This document shows, piece after piece, positions 894 to 9,070 of a stretch of DNA of 64,000 bases. Both the position numbers and the translations under genes were made by a program. The stretch is taken from contig NZ_VWVM01000002.1 of NCBI RefSeq assembly GCF_008632075.1, positions 379,462-443,461 on the forward strand, read 5' to 3'. Every line of letters begins with the position of its first letter. Positions within the stretch are counted from its first letter, which is position 1. The DNA comes from Candidatus Pantoea gossypiicola (GTDB lineage: Bacteria; Pseudomonadota; Gammaproteobacteria; Enterobacterales; Enterobacteriaceae). The notes beneath the pieces are model-generated. The model ran no database searches. It saw nothing but the letters and a program-made list of their open reading frames with translations, and was not told the origin of the DNA.

Positions 894-2726
894 CTAGTGT
901 TTCAGTGAGTAGTATATTTTTTCTGCCAGCGCGTGTGAGATACCCGGTACATTGGCGATCTCCTCTACCGACGCATTCATCAGCGGTTGCAGGCCCCCCA
1001 TGTACTTGAGCAGTTGCTGACGTCGTTTTGGCCCCACCCCTTCGATGCTCTCCAGTGCACTGGTATTCTTTACTTTAGCCCGTTTTTTACGGTGGCCCGA
1101 AATAGCATGATTGTGAGCGTCGTCACGAATGTGCTGGATCACATGCAGCGCGGGCGAATCCGGTGGCAGCGAAACGCCCTCACCTTCCGCCTCAAAGAAC
1201 AGCGTCTCCAGTCCGGCTTTACGATCGCTGCCTTTCGCAACGCCGAGTAAAATGGGCCGGTTTTTATCCCACGGCACATCCAGCTCTGCGAAAACCTGCT
1301 TTGCCTGAGAGAGCTGGCCTTTACCGCCATCGATCAGAATCACATCCGGGATTTTATCTTCTTCAATCGCCTTACCATACCGGCGTCGTAACACCTGATT
1401 CATGGCAGCGTAATCATCGCCCGGCGTAATGCCGGTGATATTATAGCGACGATAGTCAGCACGCAGCGGACCGTTCTGGTCAAACACCACACAGGATGCG
1501 ATGGTCTGCTCACCCATGGTGTGGCTGATATCGAAACACTCCATGCGCGTGATCCGGTCGAGCTCAAGGAACTCCGCCAGTGCCATCAGCCGCTGATGAA
1601 TCGTGGAGTGCTGAGACAGACGCGTGGTTAATGCCGTCGCGGCGTTGGTGCGCGCCAGTTTAAGATAACGGGCGCGATCGCCACGCGGCTTGCTCTGGAT
1701 ATTCACCCGGCGTCCCGCCAGTGCACTGAGCGACTCCGCCAGCAGTTCGCGCTCCGGCAAGGTAAAGTCCAGCAGAATATCACCCGGCAGCGTGCGTGCC
1801 TCGCTGCCCTGCAGATAAAACTGCCCGACAAAGGTCTGAACCACTTCGGCAAGATCGGTATCTACCGGCACTTTCGGGAAGTAGCTGCGGCTGCCTAATA
1901 CTTTACCCTGACGGATAAACAGCACGTGAAGACAGGCCATGCCCGCTTCATAAGCTACACCCATCACATCCAGATCATCACCCTGATTGGAAACAAACTG
2001 CTTTTCGGTGATGCGGCGTACGGCCTGAATCTGATCCCGCAGCCGTGCTGCTTCCTCGAAGCGCAGCCCAATGCTTGCTTCTTCCATGCGTTTGACCAGC
2101 TGATTGAGAACCTGATCGTCTTTACCGGCTAAAAACAGGCGCACGTAATCAGTCTGCTGCGCATACTCCTCTTCACTGACCAGGCCCGCGACACAGGGAC
2201 CAAGACAGCGACCAATCTGATATTGCAGACAGGGCCGGGAGCGATTGCGGTAAACGCTATTTTCACACTGGCGGATAGGAAAGACTTTTTGCAGCAGGCC
2301 CAGCGTTTCGCGCACCGCATAACCATTTGGAAACGGGCCAAAGTATTCACCTTTGGCATGCTTTGCGCCACGGTGCATCGCCAGCCGCGGATGGGTATCA
2401 CTGCTAAGAAAAATGTAGGGATACGATTTATCGTCGCGCAGCAGTACGTTATAGCGCGGCTGATAGAGCTTGATGTAGTTATGCTCAAGCAGCAGCGCTT
2501 CGGTTTCGGTGTGGGTAACGGTGACATCGATGTGCTGGATATTGCTGACCAGCGCTTCGGTTTTGCGGCTGCCGACCTGGGTGCGGAAGTAGCTGGTGAG
2601 ACGCTTCTTCAGGTCTTTGGCTTTGCCCACATAGATGACGGTGCCTGAGGCGTCATACATGCGGTAAACACCGGGTTTGCTGGTTACCGTACTCAGAAAG
2701 GCTCTGGAATCAAAAACGTCATTCAC
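894..2726 (-). CDS. uvrC: UvrABC excinuclease subunit C
   Basis: UvrC makes the 3' and 5' incisions flanking a UvrB-bound DNA lesion in nucleotide excision repair. The 610-residue protein has the E. coli length. It starts with a GIY-YIG nuclease domain ([20 protein letters not shown]) at about residues 18-95. A Cys-rich segment follows ([13 protein letters not shown]), then a UVR motif at about 205-240, an RNase-H-like domain with [10 protein letters not shown] and IDGGKGQL, and C-terminal tandem helix-hairpin-helix motifs ([18 protein letters not shown]). The start codon is GTG. The gene overlaps the end of uvrY by 8 bases, so the two are probably translationally coupled. Confidence 0.97.
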
Positions 2727-3378
2727 TACTGATTAACGGCTCCGCATTATAGAGGCCATGTCGAATGGCCAGATGCGTTAACTCTACGTCGCCACTGATA
2801 TTCAGCTTACTGAACATCCGGTAACGGTAGCTGTTAACGGTTTTAGGACTGAGATTTAACTGCTCGGAAATTTCCGTCACCTTTTGTCCTCGGGTGATCA
2901 TCAGCATAATCTGCAATTCCCTTTCCGACAAACAGCTAAAGGGCGATTCCGCTTTTTGCGGCTCAATCTGGCTCAGCGCCATCTGCTGAGCAATGTCTGA
3001 CGCGATGTAGCGCTGACCGGCATTCACTGAGCGAATCGCGTTAATCACTTCCTGTGGCGCAGCACCTTTACTGAGGTAGCCTGCTGCACCCGCCTGCATA
3101 ACCTTAGCAGGCAGCGGATTTTCCGTGTGAATAGTCAGCATGATAATTTTGATATCGGGATTATAACGCACGATTTTGCGCGTCGCCTCCAGTCCGCCGA
3201 TCCCCGGCATGTTCATGTCCATGAGGACCACATCAACCTGATTGGTACGGCACCATCTGGCGGCATCCTCACCACAGTTGACCTCTCCGACCACAGCCAG
3301 GCCTTTCACATCCTCCAGGATGCGACGGATACCCGCGCGGACAAGTTCATGGTCATCAACAAGAAGCACACTGATCAA
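2719..3378 (-). CDS. uvrY: BarA/UvrY two-component response regulator
   Basis: UvrY is the FixJ/NarL-type response regulator that, phosphorylated by BarA, activates the Csr small RNAs. The receiver domain covers residues 1-120, with acidic D8/D9, phospho-acceptor D54 in LMDMNMPG, and the conserved Lys in LSKGAAPQE. The LuxR-type helix-turn-helix is at about 145-205 ([24 protein letters not shown]). Translation probably starts at a TTG codon, since the homologous N-terminus begins there and a GGAG lies 8 bases before it. I recall a UUG start for E. coli uvrY too. It is the first gene of a uvrY-uvrC-pgsA unit. Confidence 0.96.
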
Positions 3379-3809
3379 CGGGGAAACTCCAGAGGCTAAA
3401 AAAGAAGAAGTAATTCACGATTTCAGGCGTTAATCATACCCGCTTTTACCTCAAAAGCACATCAACAAAGCAAAACAGTGTAAGTGTTACATCATTGCTG
3501 CCAGGTTCATCCAGACGAGATTGATGGACGGTTATTAACTGAGACCGGATGGCAAAAAAACCATCAAATGATAGTTTTTTCAGTGCATTATCACCGTCTC
3601 GCCTCAGGGTTTAGTGCCGTGCATCCTCGCGACTGCTGAGCCGATGAAGCTTGTGATTACTTTCAGCGATTGATTAGTTGTACTGGACAAACCAGCCTTT
3701 CCGGACGAAACGAAGCGGCCGTCTCAGCAACTTACTGCCTCTGTGATATACTCACGCACTGCTGCTCGGACAGATTGCCGACACGTTGTCATTCACCAAG
3801 GAGAAACGC
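3379..3809. other. uvrY-yecF divergent intergenic region
   Basis: This 431-bp stretch separates leftward uvrY from rightward yecF and should hold promoters for both. I see no convincing ORF. It contains an A/T-flanked inverted repeat at 3554-3580: AAAAAAC-C-ATC, a 4-base loop, then GAT-A-GTTTTTT. Its T-tract on the plus strand resembles an intrinsic terminator, though no plus-strand gene lies to its left. The yecF ribosome-binding site AAGGAG is at 3798-3803. Confidence 0.6.
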
Positions 3810-4034
3810 ATGAGCGATGAAGATTTTGCAACTTCCCAGGAAGCCCGGAAATTAGCGGATGAAATTGCGGGTCTGAAGATGATGATCACCCTGATTCTGA
3901 AAGGTATGGGACAGGCTGATGCCGGAAAAGTGATTATTAACATGGAACGCTATGTGCAGACGCTGGGCGACAAGCCTCAGGCGGAAGTGTTCAGCAATAC
4001 CATCAAACAGATCAAAACAGCCTACCGTCAGTAA
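3810..4034 (+). CDS. yecF: YecF family protein (DUF2594)
   Basis: Small 74-residue soluble protein of unknown function, the same length as E. coli YecF and in the same neighbourhood (uvrY-yecF-sdiA). It is predicted mostly helical, with charged and methionine-rich stretches (LKMMITLILKGMG) and no signal peptide or membrane span. An upstream in-frame ATG at 3786 is less likely; the ATG at 3810 follows AAGGAG by 6 bases. Function is not known; only the family is recognised. Confidence 0.9.
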   Translation: MSDEDFATSQEARKLADEIAGLKMMITLILKGMGQADAGKVIINMERYVQTLGDKPQAEVFSNTIKQIKTAYRQ

Positions 4035-4039
4035 GCTTT

Positions 4040-4063
4040 TTTGCCCCCAGCAGCGGGGGCAAA
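4040..4063. repeat. Inverted repeat between convergent yecF and luxI
   Basis: Nine-base arms TTTGCCCCC and GGGGGCAAA flank a 6-base loop between the yecF and luxI stop codons. It sits where a bidirectional terminator would, but the bases after the stem on either strand are A-rich, so there is no U-tract outside the stem. It may act only as an mRNA 3'-end hairpin. Confidence 0.55.
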
Positions 4064-4067
4064 TACG

Positions 4068-4679
4068 CTAACTGTGTGCCTGCCAGTTAACTGAAACGCC
4101 CAGCGTTGGCAGCACCTCTTCCGGGCTGAAACGACGTGTTCCCCGATATTTCTCTGCCAGAGTGGGTTGAACCACCGGAATACGGATCGCAAACAGATTA
4201 TCTTCTGACAGAATGAGTCCGGGCGTCAGCGGCTCATATACCACGCCATGCTCCTCAAACATCTTCTCCAGCATCGGCGTTGCCGAACTGATGATGTACT
4301 CCATGCCGTTCAGCTCTGCCAGCTGTACCGCGTGCCAGAGAATATTCAGCGGCAGTTCAGCATCGACTTCCAGCCGTGCTGAGAAGCGCGACATCTCCCA
4401 CACTTTTTCATGGCTGAAAGGCAGCACAATGCCCTCACTCTGCTCAGGTTCGAACCAGGGCATCAGACGCGCGCAGCCACTAATGCCCTCGCGCACATTC
4501 CATGCGATTAGCCAGGTGACATCTGAACGATCGTAGCGATCATATTCCTGTCCTGGCGTGCTCAGGCGTGGGGGTATTGACCACCCTTCGCCGCGCGCAA
4601 AAACGCTATAACGGTAGCTGCCGAGTTCGGCAAGCAAAGAGGATGGCATATCCTTTAATTGCGTTTGCACTATTTTCAT
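4068..4679 (-). CDS. LuxI-family acyl-homoserine lactone synthase
   Basis: The protein should make an N-acyl-homoserine lactone signal from S-adenosylmethionine and acyl-ACP. In the chosen 203-residue form the conserved LuxI residues are present: R23, F27, W33, E45, D47, D50, R71, and the WEMSRF block with E95, S97 and R98. The ORF is open 42 codons further upstream, but AGAGG lies 6 bases before the ATG at 4679 and the family starts near here; ATG 4682 is the close alternative. The sequence looks closer to the ExpI/PhzI and RhlI-like branches than to the EanI/PagI type, from memory. It lies directly downstream of sdiA on the same strand, with a 20-bp dyad in the 122-bp gap, so SdiA is the likely receptor. 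The acyl chain cannot be read from sequence. Confidence 0.93.
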   Translation of the reverse strand: MKIVQTQLKDMPSSLLAELGSYRYSVFARGEGWSIPPRLSTPGQEYDRYDRSDVTWLIAWNVREGISGCARLMPWFEPEQSEGIVLPFSHEKVWEMSRFSARLEVDAELPLNILWHAVQLAELNGMEYIISSATPMLEKMFEEHGVVYEPLTPGLILSEDNLFAIRIPVVQPTLAEKYRGTRRFSPEEVLPTLGVSVNWQAHS

Positions 4680-4718
4680 CATACGCCTCTGACATCCCCA
4701 TGTTTGCAATGATTTCTT

Positions 4719-4746
4719 TGCGCCAGCCCGGCAAAGCCCCGGCGCA
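4719..4746 (-). repeat. Hairpin in the luxI leader
   Basis: On the minus strand TGCGCC and GGCGCA form a perfect 6-bp stem around a GC-rich 16-base interior, about 40 bases upstream of the luxI start. If transcription begins near the lux-box-like site, this falls in the untranslated leader. Any regulatory role is inference. Confidence 0.4.
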
Positions 4747-4772
4747 GGGTAGACAACAGACCTGTACAAAGG

Positions 4773-4792
4773 AACTGCCAAATGTAGCAGTT
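4773..4792 (-). promoter_or_regulatory. Candidate lux box upstream of luxI
   Basis: A perfect 20-bp dyad, AACTGC-N8-GCAGTT, carries the CTG...CAG core and exact length typical of LuxR-family operators. It lies between the sdiA stop and the luxI start, 94 bases before luxI, suited to a site near a luxI promoter. A second half-site-like ACCTGTAC is just downstream. Binding by SdiA is inferred. Confidence 0.6.
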
Positions 4793-4801
4793 GTGTTATG
4801 T

Positions 4802-5524
4802 TCAAATCAGTCCGATTGCCGCTGCGTAGCAGGCAATCTGCGTTTTATTGGAAACATTGAAACGCTTTTGCATATTTTTTTGGTGAAAGTTAACGGTATG
4901 TTCAGAGATGGATAAAATTAGTGAAATTTCGACCGCCGTTTTTCCTTCGGCTGTCCATTTCATAATTTCCAGCTCGCGCTGACTAAACGCTTCTTTTAGT
5001 ACCATCATTGCATCATCGCTAAAGCGTTCCAGCGTATCCAGGCTTAGTTCCGCTAAAAGGTGTAGTTTCACCTCCAGCTCAGCATGGCGGAGCTGGACAG
5101 AAATGGGCTGTTGCGACGATATAGATAATATACCAATGACGCGATTTGGTGCCATTGCGGAGCAAGAAAATCCGCTCTGCAGCCCATATTCTCTCGCCTC
5201 ATGCCAAAGATTGCCGGCGTCAGCGAACTGTTCTTCTATCCAGGCCATCCCTCTGCCCGGTCGCTGACACAATGTGAGCACCGGATCGACAGCGTAATAA
5301 TTCTGCTTCTCATAACGTTTAACCCATAATTTGGGATAGGTGCTATGTAAATGAATACGCGGCCGGGTAAATGGCACCGGATGCTGAATCAAAAAGGCAA
5401 AATAATCGAAGCCTAATGATTCAGTAAACTGTTGCAATAACGTCTTCAATTCAGAAGAAGCCGTTAATGCCTGAAATTTTTCTTTCACCTCACTTCGCCA
5501 GGCGAAATAGTTTTCAGTACTCAT
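4802..5524 (-). CDS. sdiA: SdiA, LuxR-family quorum-sensing regulator
   Basis: SdiA binds acyl-homoserine lactones through its N-terminal domain and DNA through a LuxR helix-turn-helix. The 240-residue length equals E. coli SdiA. Conserved pocket residues Y63, W67, Y71 and D80 are present after the PVPFTRP block. The C-terminal region, about 170-240, includes SQRELEIMKWTAEGKT and SEHTVNFHQKNMQKR, close to E. coli. In E. coli SdiA is an orphan; here a LuxI synthase follows it. AT-rich inverted repeats lie upstream, but no regulator can be assigned to them. Confidence 0.95.
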   Translation of the reverse strand: MSTENYFAWRSEVKEKFQALTASSELKTLLQQFTESLGFDYFAFLIQHPVPFTRPRIHLHSTYPKLWVKRYEKQNYYAVDPVLTLCQRPGRGMAWIEEQFADAGNLWHEAREYGLQSGFSCSAMAPNRVIGILSISSQQPISVQLRHAELEVKLHLLAELSLDTLERFSDDAMMVLKEAFSQRELEIMKWTAEGKTAVEISLILSISEHTVNFHQKNMQKRFNVSNKTQIACYAAAIGLI

Positions 5525-6693
5525 ATTGCCTCAGCGTTAATTTCACTCGCCCTTCCGGTATTATTCATTCGGATTCATCGGATAAATTTAATTAATAGTA
5601 AAAAATTAATTTATCGTTGAGGTGAACCCTCACCCTATACAGCGCATAATGCCATTCACCGTTATGGCGCAGTGAAAAAATGCCCTCCCCCTGTAATGTG
5701 AGGCCGGCCGCAGCAATTTCAATCACCCCAGAAGAATAAGATTTTTCTGATAGAAATTCAATCCCTGGCAATGAATCAATTTTATCTCAGCTTTGAAAAG
5801 CTGCCGGGAATATTGAATCGGTCTACGGGATGTTGAGTAAATAATGCGTAAACAAGGCGTTAATTGCGTCCCAATAAGCGAAGCGGCAGTCGAAAACTGC
5901 TGACATATTTTTTATCAGGAAATAAGCTCTGCTCGCCAGGCGATGCCCCATTCCTGCTATCAGTCCCTCTGTATGGAAGCACACGCCTCTCTAACCGAAA
6001 AAGGTAACAGGTGCGCAGACTACATCTGCCGCCTCTCGATGCTGATTCTGCTCCCTTTTCCTTAGCTGTCTGACAGGCATAGCGAAGAGTTGTTTGATAA
6101 GAATATTCTGCCCGGCTGCAATGACTACCGCACAAATTGACCCGCTCAGCCCTTAAACAATCTTTTTGACTGCGAATAATCTGAGCCGAAAGCAGCGCAT
6201 TAAAGGAAATCAGCTTTATCTGTCTCCTGCCTTAACATAATACGTGGCACAGATCACTATTTATGCCGATAGTACGTTATGGCAACAGTACGCTCAACGC
6301 TGACGCTATGTTAGTCATGAAAATCACTATACCGTTAGTCACACAACTCAATCACTGAAAAACTCAAAGGGAAAATCCCCTATCGTTATTTGATGCTGCA
6401 CACTTTATCGATGCAGTTAATTTCCCCTAATTCACTTTGCAGCATCGTGAATTAATTTCATCCAGATGCTGCTCGCCCTGTTCGGATAAGACGGCGAAAC
6501 TTTACCGCTGATTGCATTTATGGGCAATTTTCTGTTGTAACTCATGGCCCTGAAAAAGCCTGCCCGATCGGCCGCCTGATTTATTGCTGCTGATTGTCAG
6601 GTATGTCTGCGCTGGCAATGATAACTGGTTTGGTTTTTCCCTTACCGGCAGTTTTATTCTTAATCAAACACGGTCTTAATCCTGCCTGATGAT
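5525..6693. other. Long non-coding spacer upstream of sdiA
   Basis: About 1.17 kb has no convincing coding frame; the only ORF, 91 codons at 5860-6135 on the minus strand, has no recognisable family or ribosome-binding site. Near sdiA are two dyads: GATAAATT/AATTTATC at 5581-5615 and GGTGA-ACCC-TCACC at 5621-5634. Further out the octamer GATGCTGC occurs at 6392 and 6465 and inverted at 6439, so 6439-6472 forms an 8-bp inverted repeat. The segment is AT-richer than the flanking genes. It probably holds the sdiA promoter; the rest may be decayed sequence or an unrecognised small RNA. Confidence 0.5.
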
Positions 6694-7389
6694 TTATCGG
6701 CAGTAGCCCGCGCCACGCATACCCAGATGAAAATGTGAGGCGTGAGCAGCGTTGAAGTCCGGCCCCAGCGCATTGCCGAATACGTCACAGCCGCCACGCC
6801 ACAGCGTGTGCAGCATGGCCGCTTTATCTTCTGGCTGTTGCCAGTGACGACTGACCTCAAGCCGCTGGCCATCAGCCAGCTGGAAGCCGGTCACATCCCA
6901 GGCATCGGCGGTGGCATGCTCACTAAGCCGCCCCTCTGCGCGATGATAAATATTACGACAGGCATAGCTGCCGACATGGGTAATTCGTACCAGTGGACTG
7001 TGCATGTCCCGGGCAATCTGTTCCCGGCTGCGCAGGGCATACATGGTGCTGGCGACGGCCATTGGACAGCTGGCGAGAAAGCTGCTGCTGAGGCTGACCG
7101 GACCAAATTTCTGAATTCGCAGTGGATGGCTGATCGGACAGTTGCCCGTGACGGCCGGACGTTCGCTGAAACTGACCCATCCCGCCTGTTGGGCACGACG
7201 CATCACCGCCAGACATTCGTCGGGATCCTGGGCCAGCCTTTTCATCTTTATCTGCGTCATCCAGCCTGGAGGATCGGTGACGGAGAGCGGTATAAAAGGA
7301 TTGAACTGGGGCGGGAGATGCTGCTTAAGCCAGGGTAAGCTGACCCATCCCAGCGCAATTAACAGCAGAAACAGGATAAGCGTGCGCAT
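6694..7389 (-). CDS. Extensin-like family protein, membrane-anchored or exported
   Basis: The 231-residue protein starts with a hydrophobic segment (MRTLILFLLLIALGWVSL), a signal anchor or uncleaved signal peptide. A periplasmic domain of the bacterial extensin-like C-terminal family follows. Candidate metal-site residues resembling M15-type peptidases are visible: ADAWDVTGF near the middle and HASHFHLGM near the C-terminus. Cysteine pairs in the mature part could form disulfides. The start at 7389 is preferred over the ORF start 20 codons upstream because AAGGG precedes it and the signal segment then begins at residue 1. A peptidoglycan-related role is inference. Adjacent genes give no clue. 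Confidence 0.8.
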   Translation of the reverse strand: MRTLILFLLLIALGWVSLPWLKQHLPPQFNPFIPLSVTDPPGWMTQIKMKRLAQDPDECLAVMRRAQQAGWVSFSERPAVTGNCPISHPLRIQKFGPVSLSSSFLASCPMAVASTMYALRSREQIARDMHSPLVRITHVGSYACRNIYHRAEGRLSEHATADAWDVTGFQLADGQRLEVSRHWQQPEDKAAMLHTLWRGGCDVFGNALGPDFNAAHASHFHLGMRGAGYCR

Positions 7390-7646
7390 AATTCCCTTTG
7401 CAGCATAATGATTAATAACTAAAAAGTGTAGAAGCACATTCCGCTTCACGCCGTCTGCCTGACATAACGTGATGAATAATTACCCAGACTGACGCAGGAT
7501 TGAACGAAACTGCCCGTTATTACGACTTGCGGAGCATCAGGCTTCACAATTGATAAAAAAGCGTTACCCGATTCCGGCCCTCTTCCTCTATCTTATGCCC
7601 ACTTGCCTCTCGGGCAGACGCGTTTACTAACAGCCAGCAGAGCTGA

Positions 7647-7654
7647 CACAACAT
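7647..7654 (+). promoter_or_regulatory. Candidate GcvB small-RNA target in the cycA leader
   Basis: The C/A-rich motif CACAACAT lies 21 bases before the cycA start. GcvB R1 binds such motifs in amino-acid transporter mRNAs, and cycA is a known GcvB target in E. coli. Pairing is not demonstrated here. Confidence 0.5.
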
Positions 7655-7675
7655 CAAGACAGGAAAGACAATTCT

Positions 7676-9070
7676 ATGGTCGACCAATCTAAAGAAACCG
7701 CACGCGCGCACGACGCGCCCGACAAGCTACAGCGCAACCTGCATAATCGCCATATTCAGCTGATTGCCATAGGGGGTGCTATCGGTACCGGCCTGTTTAT
7801 GGGTTCCGGTAAAACCATTAGTCTGGCTGGTCCCTCGATCATTTTCGTCTATATGATCATCGGCTTCATGCTGTTCTTCGTGATGCGCGCAATGGGAGAG
7901 CTGCTGCTTTCCAACCTTGAATACAAGTCTTTCAGTGATTTTGCCGCGGATCTGCTTGGACCGTGGGCGGGCTATTTTACCGGCTGGACTTACTGGTTCT
8001 GCTGGGTAGTCACCGGTATCGCCGACGTCGTGGCCATCAGCGCCTATTTCCAGCTCTGGTTCCCGGGCTTTTCAGTCTGGATGAGCGCCCTGCTCTGTGT
8101 GGTGGTTTTTCTGGCGCTGAACATCGCCACGGTTAAGCTGTTTGGTGAGTTGGAGTTCTGGTTCGCGATAATCAAAATCGTCGCCATTGTCGCGCTGATC
8201 GTCACAGGGATTGTGCTGGTATCGATTCACTACCCTTCACCCGGTGGCGGCACCGCGGCGCTGAGCAACATCTGGGATCACGGCGGGATGTTCCCGAAAG
8301 GACTCAGCGGCTTCTTTGCAGGATTCCAGATTGCGGTGTTTGCCTTTGTCGGCATTGAACTGGTCGGAACGGCAGCCGCTGAAACCCACGATCCACATAG
8401 AGTCTTACCGCGCGCGATTAACGCGATTCCACTGCGGGTCATCATGTTTTATGTGCTGGCGCTGATGGTGATCATGGCGGTGACGCCGTGGACCCAGGTG
8501 ATGGCCGACCGCAGTCCGTTTGTCGAGATGTTCGTACTGATTGGCCTGCCTGCTGCGGCGAGTATCGTTAACTTTGTCGTGCTGACCTCTGCCGCCTCTT
8601 CAGCCAACAGCGGCATCTTCTCCACCAGCCGTATGCTCTATGGCCTGTCGCAGCAAGGCGTCGCGAGCCGCGCGTTTGGCCGTCTCTCTGCCCGTGCGGT
8701 CCCGACTACCGGCCTGTTCTTCTCCTGCCTGTGTCTGCTGCTCGGTGTGGCGTTGATCTACCTGATCCCGGATGTGATGAAGGTCTTTACGCTGGTGACC
8801 ACCGTTTCAGCCATTCTGTTTATGTTCGTCTGGACCATCATTCTGTGCAGCTATCTGGCTTACCGTAAAAAGCATCCTGAGCGCCATGCCAGATCGGCCT
8901 TTAAGATGCCACTGGGCAAATTTATGTGCTGGGTCTGCATGGCCTTCTTTGCATTTGTGCTGGTGCTGCTGACGCTGCAGGAAGATACGCGCCAGGCGCT
9001 GATGGTCACGCCTCTCTGGTTTGTGCTGCTGGGTGTGGGCTGGACGTTGCGTCATCGCCGCAGCCGTTAA
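7676..9070 (+). CDS. cycA: D-serine/D-alanine/glycine:proton symporter
   Basis: CycA imports glycine, D-alanine, D-serine and the antibiotic D-cycloserine with protons across the inner membrane. The 464-residue protein has about twelve hydrophobic spans of the APC amino-acid permease family. The first span has the signature IAIGGAIGTGLFMGSG, and long stretches such as GLSGFFAGFQIAVFAFVGIE and the SSANSG motif match E. coli CycA as I recall it. The start follows an AGGAAAG site. A strong terminator follows the gene. The leader carries a candidate GcvB target. Confidence 0.95.
   Translation: MVDQSKETARAHDAPDKLQRNLHNRHIQLIAIGGAIGTGLFMGSGKTISLAGPSIIFVYMIIGFMLFFVMRAMGELLLSNLEYKSFSDFAADLLGPWAGYFTGWTYWFCWVVTGIADVVAISAYFQLWFPGFSVWMSALLCVVVFLALNIATVKLFGELEFWFAIIKIVAIVALIVTGIVLVSIHYPSPGGGTAALSNIWDHGGMFPKGLSGFFAGFQIAVFAFVGIELVGTAAAETHDPHRVLPRAINAIPLRVIMFYVLALMVIMAVTPWTQVMADRSPFVEMFVLIGLPAAASIVNFVVLTSAASSANSGIFSTSRMLYGLSQQGVASRAFGRLSARAVPTTGLFFSCLCLLLGVALIYLIPDVMKVFTLVTTVSAILFMFVWTIILCSYLAYRKKHPERHARSAFKMPLGKFMCWVCMAFFAFVLVLLTLQEDTRQALMVTPLWFVLLGVGWTLRHRRSR

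Follow-up and report, generated by a model that had tools for sequence, protein, structure and literature searches.

A conserved palindrome between sdiA and luxI in Pantoea and related genera, a probable SdiA operator at the luxI promoter

In a 64,000-nucleotide stretch of the Candidatus Pantoea gossypiicola genome (hereafter the window), the receptor gene sdiA is followed in the same direction by a gene for a LuxI-type synthase of acyl-homoserine lactones (AHLs), and a 20-bp dyad, AACTGC-N8-GCAGTT, lies between the two. We propose, with a probability of roughly 80%, that SdiA bound to AHL activates luxI from this dyad, and that the locus would thereby hold a complete quorum-sensing circuit of the ancestral SdiA type. 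In the proposed circuit, LuxI would make an AHL, and SdiA would bind it and sit as a dimer on the palindrome just past its own gene, from where it may recruit RNA polymerase to the weak luxI promoter, so that signal production would feed back positively on itself. The gene pair itself is already known; the operator-promoter is a new regulatory element, though of a familiar kind, and a well-supported one. In enteric bacteria SdiA serves as the eavesdropping receptor of the LuxR type. The lineage that keeps the synthase is a natural experiment, in which one 20-bp palindrome and one promoter layout have stayed fixed across Pantoea, Mixta, Winslowiella and Erwinia despite drift of the synthase.

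An earlier reading of this DNA, made from the sequence alone, had drawn attention to the locus, and its description of the two genes and of the dyad holds. Coordinates and domain matches agree that SdiA adjoins a same-direction LuxI-type gene on the yecF side, in the order sdiA-luxI-yecF-uvrY with sdiA and luxI in tandem on the minus strand, and the dyad between them is perfect. That reading had placed the dyad 10 bp from sdiA and 94 bp from luxI; the position is right, but 9 bp separate it from the sdiA stop codon, and the distance to luxI is 90 bp when measured to the first ATG and 93 bp to the second.

The dyad and the luxI promoter

The evidence that we regard as decisive for the dyad is its conservation across loci. 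We pooled 114 loci, 46 of them from genome searches (which yielded loci for part of the matches only) and 68 from named genomes, and reduced them by distinct upstream-plus-LuxI sequence to 84 from the Pantoea/Mixta/Erwinia group, in which we judged sdiA to be intact in 75 (with an unclear N-terminus in one, L087), broken in five and missing from four. A box pattern of the las/rhl type, AACTRC-N8-GYAGTT, sought 90-135 bp upstream of luxI, is matched exactly in 70 of the 75 loci with intact sdiA, in two of the five with broken sdiA and in none of the four without it. Lux boxes of the las/rhl type are palindromes of about 20 bp with a CT-N12-AG core. The window box has this core, and the constancy of the core in the 33 distinct sequences to which the 72 exact boxes reduce follows from the search pattern. 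Positions 5 and 16 of the half-sites carry A/T in 57 of the 72 boxes, G/C in 11 and the mixed G/T in four, and the two positions are complementary in 31 of the 33 distinct boxes, where shuffling gives a mean of 20.9 and none of 2000 shuffles reaches 31, a coupling that should be expected of a site bound by a dimer. Fifteen of the 72 are perfect 20-bp palindromes through the centre.

A second conserved element, the block TTGTCTACCCTGCGCC, stands out in an alignment of 74 upstream regions. Both elements were found in 78 loci, and in 77 of these exactly 16 bp separate them, the block having been sought with up to six mismatches anywhere in 260 bp. In class II lux-type activated promoters the box lies upstream of the -10 at a fixed distance and is centred near -42.5. 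If TACCCT is taken as the -10, a poor one, the window box is centred near -43; this geometry fits that of a LuxR-type activated promoter, with transcription of luxI predicted to start at about 4738-4740. That the dyad is probably a lux box, as the sequence-only reading suggested, is now strongly supported by its conservation, by the symmetric change at one position pair, by the promoter geometry and by its absence where sdiA is gone. Literature searches, with most subscription-journal papers outside their coverage, returned no description of the dyad as an operator and none of the box sequences AACTACTAAATTTAGTAGTT, AACTACTAATTTTAGTAGTT, AACTGCTACATTTGGCAGTT and AACTACCAGATCTGGTAGTT; among titles and abstract openings on lux boxes and SdiA with Pantoea, Erwinia amylovora expR, SdiA boxes and luxI promoters, none concerned this operator.

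The main rival to activation is that the dyad is the operator of a repressor, at which SdiA blocks luxI until AHL relieves the block, as EsaR and EanR do at their own genes. The box is found upstream of the -10-like block at a fixed 16 bp rather than over it, and this placement together with a poor -10 is the layout of an activated lux-type promoter, which argues against repression. In two loci the -10 has moved toward consensus and reads TATTCT instead of TACCCT, namely in P. agglomerans NBRC 102470 (L077), whose box is altered in both halves, and in Erwinia endophytica (L126), which has lost sdiA and the box. With two cases this is only suggestive of a possible shift to SdiA-independent expression, such as the loss of an activator would favour. 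The EsaI/EsaR and EanI/EanR pairs of Pantoea are likewise AHL synthase/receptor pairs, and EanR of P. ananatis is described as a repressor that AHL de-represses (PMC7883899), so the mode exists in the genus; E. coli SdiA is also reported to be purifiable without AHL (PMC12086679). On balance, we consider repression improbable, and activation by SdiA remains our preferred reading.

Several caveats and counter-observations apply to SdiA-dependent activation from the dyad. A genome-wide search for further boxes, which the sequence-only reading had proposed, found the dyad to be the sole perfect match in the genome of 4,936,004 bases and 47 contigs, but about 0.3 such matches are expected by simple arithmetic, so uniqueness alone is weak evidence. 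Chance alone would also place a perfect inverted repeat with 6-bp arms and a spacer of 8, whatever its letters, in roughly 2% of intergenic stretches of this length. The association of the exact box with intact sdiA (Fisher p = 5.6e-6, intact versus rest) is a statistic that ignores shared ancestry. Pantoea sp. 1.19 (L134) has an intact sdiA and neither box nor block, the boxes at four other intact sdiA genes are inexact (one mismatch in L117; two in L077, L135 and L058), and the box is retained in two loci with a frame-broken sdiA, which could be a matter of recent decay. The pair 5/16 is the sole coupled one, with no coupling beyond shuffling at 7/14, 9/12 or 10/11. On the side of the synthase, window LuxI reaches 22.8 bits for Pfam PF00765, below the cut-off of 24 and over residues 15-100 only, and two AHL biosensors are reported to have given no response to E. 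pyrifoliae, a species with a pair of SdiA-like and synthase genes (PMC2827408); its synthase may form an unusual product or none.

The synthase, the receptor and the reach of the site

The low Pfam score and the negative biosensors, together with the very long stem branch of the LuxI clade of this locus (3.75 changes per site), speak for a further alternative, that the synthase makes another signal or nothing and that the pair is a relic. This would be compatible with the dyad being an operator, and we hold it to be unlikely in view of how well the synthase has been kept. LuxI-type AHL synthases share eight conserved catalytic residues, which we take to be R, F, W, D, D, R, E and R. All eight are present in window LuxI, and R24, W34, D51, R72 and R99 are kept in 78 of 78 aligned LuxI, with F28, D48 and E96 in 77. 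The alignment covers 78 of the 84 distinct loci, six having been dropped because they gave no LuxI reading of more than 150 aa from the assigned start; the dropped sequences include at least L118, L133 and L138, where that start was misplaced. At each of the 74 loci compared, LuxI has changed less than SdiA (median identities to the window of 86.5% and 69.2%, with L081 counted although the end of its sdiA is out of frame), so in this clade the synthase is the better-kept half of the pair, and the opposite holds in E. coli. Its identity to that of the window falls to 63% at loci with intact sdiA and to 58% over all loci.

The predicted structure also points to an AHL synthase. An AlphaFold2 model of LuxI (20 locus members; pLDDT 79.6, pTM 0.81) has as its nine best Foldseek matches AHL synthases throughout, TofI first, at query TM-scores of 0.61-0.66; it is closest to TofI, BjaI and LasI, and other acetyltransferases rank after the AHL synthases. 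In addition, ExpI and PhzI, the synthases of the same locus in Erwinia and Pantoea, are stated to produce oxoC6 (PMC3474713). Taken together, the window synthase appears to be a divergent AHL synthase in which the catalytic residues and, according to the model, the fold are kept, and its product is presumably an AHL. Separately, the synthase of one locus with broken sdiA (L080) is without one catalytic aspartate.

The sequence-only reading had tentatively assigned the pair to an Erwinia/Pantoea lineage of ExpI/PhzI type, and the comparison bears this out. The same locus is present in P. ananatis LMG 2665 and E. persicina, both compared directly with that of the window, and in a 40-row tree, which included no RhlI sequence, all 17 synthases included from this locus, window LuxI among them, cluster together with support 100/100 and stand separate from the 23 other rows. 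The closest named LuxI, from Candidatus Pantoea varia, is 99% identical, and the nearest named relatives outside the clade, among the matches listed, are beta-proteobacterial and Acinetobacter synthases at 25-32%. In synteny and clade the locus is that of ExpR/ExpI of Erwinia and PhzR/PhzI of Pantoea, and the genes are no different from those described by Sabag-Daigle & Ahmer 2012 (PMC3474713), whose whole text mentions no operator or promoter. Compared with RhlR/RhlI of Pseudomonas aeruginosa, the receptor is RhlR-like and the box letters agree with those of RhlR ChIP sites, whereas the synthase is far diverged and the signal stated for ExpI and PhzI is oxoC6 rather than the C4 of RhlR/RhlI.

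Published phenotypes give hints of function. The grazing-susceptible mutants listed for P. ananatis BRT175 include transposon insertions in phzI and in the space ahead of phzR/sdiA (PMC4863597), which argues that the locus matters in the living cell. The rhlI/rhlR genes of P. ananatis LMG 2665 are cited as required for biofilm formation (PMC5532839); we have taken these to be the sdiA/luxI pair discussed here, an identification that is ours and is unstated in that source.

Window SdiA matches PF03472 with 107.7 bits and PF00196 with 69.6 bits. Its best NCBIfam model is that of SdiA (NF007561, an equivalog), with 301.5 bits over residues 1-240 of 240 compared with 50.6 for the next model; the score is below the cut-off of 350, so the NCBI rule would not name the protein SdiA, and we class it only as an orthologue of SdiA as that term is used in PMC3474713. 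Orthology is further indicated by the nearby uvrY gene (Table 1) and by the best relatives in the PDB, SdiA (4lfu, 224.2 bits) and RhlR (7r3j, 195.6), with the next LuxR protein (3szt) at 109.6 and LasR and TraR ranking well behind.

The dyad might also be bound by a different LuxR protein, for example an EsaR-like one, since the window genome carries a second luxI/luxR pair, a convergent one of EsaI/LuxR type (G000:C5; L001, 1438-2878), whose synthase has EsaI as its closest PDB relative (134.6 bits) and is full-scoring in Pfam. We consider this very unlikely. The four loci without sdiA are also without the box although their genomes keep LuxR-like proteins, the best other match to SdiA having 28-32% identity, and the letters of the box are those of RhlR sites, as would suit the RhlR-like SdiA. 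The RhlR site reported at P. aeruginosa phzA1, ACCTACCAGATCTTGTAGTT (PMC10732425), looks like the box AACTACCAGATCTGGTAGTT at luxI of E. typographi. Even less credible is a transcription terminator, an RNA hairpin ending sdiA: the dyad starts 9 bp past the sdiA stop and a simple scan calls a terminator-like element on the plus strand, but this is the strand opposite sdiA, the sdiA-strand tail CCTTTGTACA is without a T run, some boxes are symmetric right through the centre, at the place where a hairpin would require its loop, and the stem of 57 of the 72 exact boxes is the AT-richer AACTAC/GTAGTT.

With SdiA as the favoured binder, we considered how far its site reaches beyond luxI. At up to two mismatches to the dyad, the window contains three matches, just one of them perfect, versus 3.43 expected from shuffles, and the genome 325 versus 254 for a reversed-pattern control. 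Of 61 genomes of the genus, 56 contain the strict box AACTRCYNNNNNNRGYAGTT, 43 of them once and 13 twice (control 0-5 per genome), and the site common to each of these genomes is, by eye, the luxI one. The window genome has five exact matches to the 16-bp core, four inside longest reading frames and the fifth at luxI (155 matches at up to one mismatch, against 446 for the control); another genome, G005, has a single exact core match besides luxI, again within a frame. These counts indicate that the site, strictly defined, is one of luxI; there may be weaker targets, which such a pattern would miss. Strict matches beyond luxI are few in the 61 genomes and, among the matches listed, not above a composition-unmatched reversed-pattern control. 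A few of 15 extra near-perfect sites inspected look box-like, but no regulon is claimed.

Two groups of sites outside luxI are recorded here as observations. In L273, L274 and L276, positions 2001-2020 hold a near-perfect box with one outer mismatch, beside a small cytidine/dCMP-deaminase-type gene in two of them, and this is a possible second SdiA target. A box-like palindrome, ACCTACTATATTTAGTAGTT, is present at 2001-2020 in L268 and L269, and the L268 copy precedes a flagellin gene.

Variation in the receptor was compared with variation in the box. SdiA of P. allii (L086) and P. ananatis (L090) has an altered recognition helix, NFYQKNMKK, and occurs with the asymmetric box AACTGC-N8-GTAGTT. 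Co-evolution of receptor and box was considered as an account of such pairings and rejected: the two symmetric dialects of the box (GC and AC) share one recognition helix, so no switch in SdiA explains them, and the pairing of the H to Y helix change with an asymmetric box (L086, L090 and L082, where sdiA is broken) looks like one clade, with a Mixta locus (L112) asymmetric without the change.

Solo SdiA and the published SdiA box

In E. coli SdiA has no synthase partner, whereas in the window it adjoins one. The recognition helix of solo SdiA is nearly unchanged (NTVNFHQKNMQKKINAPNKTQ in K-12 compared with NTVNFHQKNMQKRFNAPNKTQ in E. persicina), which makes the luxI dyad a strong candidate for the operator that SdiA reads in general, and E. 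coli SdiA may be predicted to read the same letters. The site of SdiA on DNA is described as disputed (PMC12086679). One recent source uses AAAAG(N8)GAAAA as the SdiA box, aligned with ftsQ of E. coli, and itself notes the lack of mutational proof for it (PMC13209580, 2026); its letters differ from those of the luxI dyad, and it is not an inverted repeat. In a 2024 study of the SdiA regulon, a term search of the main text returned no motif, consensus, palindrom-, box or binding site (PMC11619404).

We put forward tentatively, at somewhat less than even odds, a wider hypothesis: AACTRC-N8-GYAGTT would be the ancestral operator, with the promoter of the partner synthase as its single strict target in the paired species; solo SdiA would still read this las/rhl-type site because its DNA-reading helix has hardly changed; and AAAAG-N8-GAAAA would be wrong or secondary. 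Either way, the luxI dyad makes the question of the disputed site directly testable, as a precisely defined sequence on which E. coli SdiA can be tried. As a clean and native target, it would also allow one to ask whether positive feedback was the mode of the ancestral circuit.

Behind solo sdiA, neither a luxI remnant nor a fossil of box plus block was found in 36 of 36 loci (L216 with a broken sdiA), so the loss of the synthase appears clean. Box matches with two or three mismatches are scattered over these loci, one of them (two mismatches) 11 bp behind sdiA in L212. Across 35 solo genomes the strict pattern has at least 1-8 matches each among those listed, below the 11-43 of the reversed-pattern control. 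A 4.5-kb stretch around K-12 sdiA gave 11 matches at up to three mismatches versus 4.79 expected (3 of 200 shuffles had as many), the best of which, with two mismatches, lies inside tcyL; the K-12 counts show nothing either way.

Distribution, receptor loss and neighbouring features

In the genus, a synthase match is present in 59 of 61 genomes, 58 as an unbroken frame and one (G041, 2.4 Mb) as fragments with stops; the two genomes without a match are reduced (2.9 and 1.4 Mb). A family-wide draw of 392 genomes gave 31 with a match, of which 20 reach at least 58% identity and 11 are no more than distant. The 68 loci from named genomes belong to Pantoea, Mixta, Winslowiella, Izhakiella and Erwinia, with a few labelled Enterobacter, unclassified or symbiont. 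The gene yecF is next in all 68 and uvrY is found in 67, the remaining locus (L084) lying on a stretch that ends with its contig. This distribution matches the published account, in which Erwinia and Pantoea keep a synthase that SdiA has lost elsewhere (PMC3474713; PMC12086679).

Loss of the receptor is also seen, the reverse of the E. coli situation. L126, L137, L139 and L053 have an intact luxI frame with sdiA and the box gone, with sdiA remnants in L126 and L139, and these four loci sit in different places in the tree, not all of them well resolved. A broken sdiA is found in a Pantoea symbiont of Euschistus servus (L080), Candidatus P. haifensis (L081), P. stewartii CCUG 26359 (L082), E. 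psidii (L132) and a Plautia stali symbiont (L141).

Table 1. Features of the sdiA-luxI locus, in window coordinates
Feature	Position	Strand	Description
sdiA	4802-5524	-	240 aa; SdiA/ExpR/PhzR orthologue; autoinducer-binding domain and GerE HTH
20-bp dyad AACTGCTACATTTGGCAGTT (minus-strand reading)	4773-4792	-	Probable SdiA operator, las/rhl-type lux box
Conserved block TTGTCTACCCTGCGCC	4741-4756	-	Exactly 16 bp past the dyad; probable -10 region
Putative -10 hexamer TACCCT	4746-4751	-	Tentatively placed by distance from the box
luxI leader	4683-4740	-	58 nt past the block; putative ribosome-binding site directly 5' of the ATGs
luxI-type AHL synthase gene (ExpI/PhzI lineage)	4068-4682	-	204 aa from the first of two tandem ATGs (4682, 4679)
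yecF (DUF2594)	3810-4034	+	Synteny marker; PF10769, 126.3 bits; NF007904 above cut-off
uvrY/sirA/gacA response regulator	2719-3378	-	NF007018, 438.6 bits (cut-off 280); synteny marker defining sdiA orthology

Control of the luxI leader by CsrA/RsmA through a ACAUGGGGAUGU hairpin was considered and rejected, as GGA occurs 1.90 times per leader versus 1.87 in single-base shuffles of the 73 leaders. Upstream of sdiA, about 1.2 kb (5525-6693) holds only a weak open reading frame, and seven terminator-like hairpins are called in 4600-6700 compared with 1.8 in shuffles; a search of 3300-7700 found no Rfam family.

A distant LuxI group of the same family (L064-L073) has about 40% identity over the N-terminal half. 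Its members adjoin a LuxR protein 28-35% identical to SdiA, and the stretches of about 3.3 kb around them contain no uvrY match. Two records titled Enterobacter ludwigii (L093) and Enterobacter cancerogenus (L101) carry the Pantoea-type locus and are probably misnamed.

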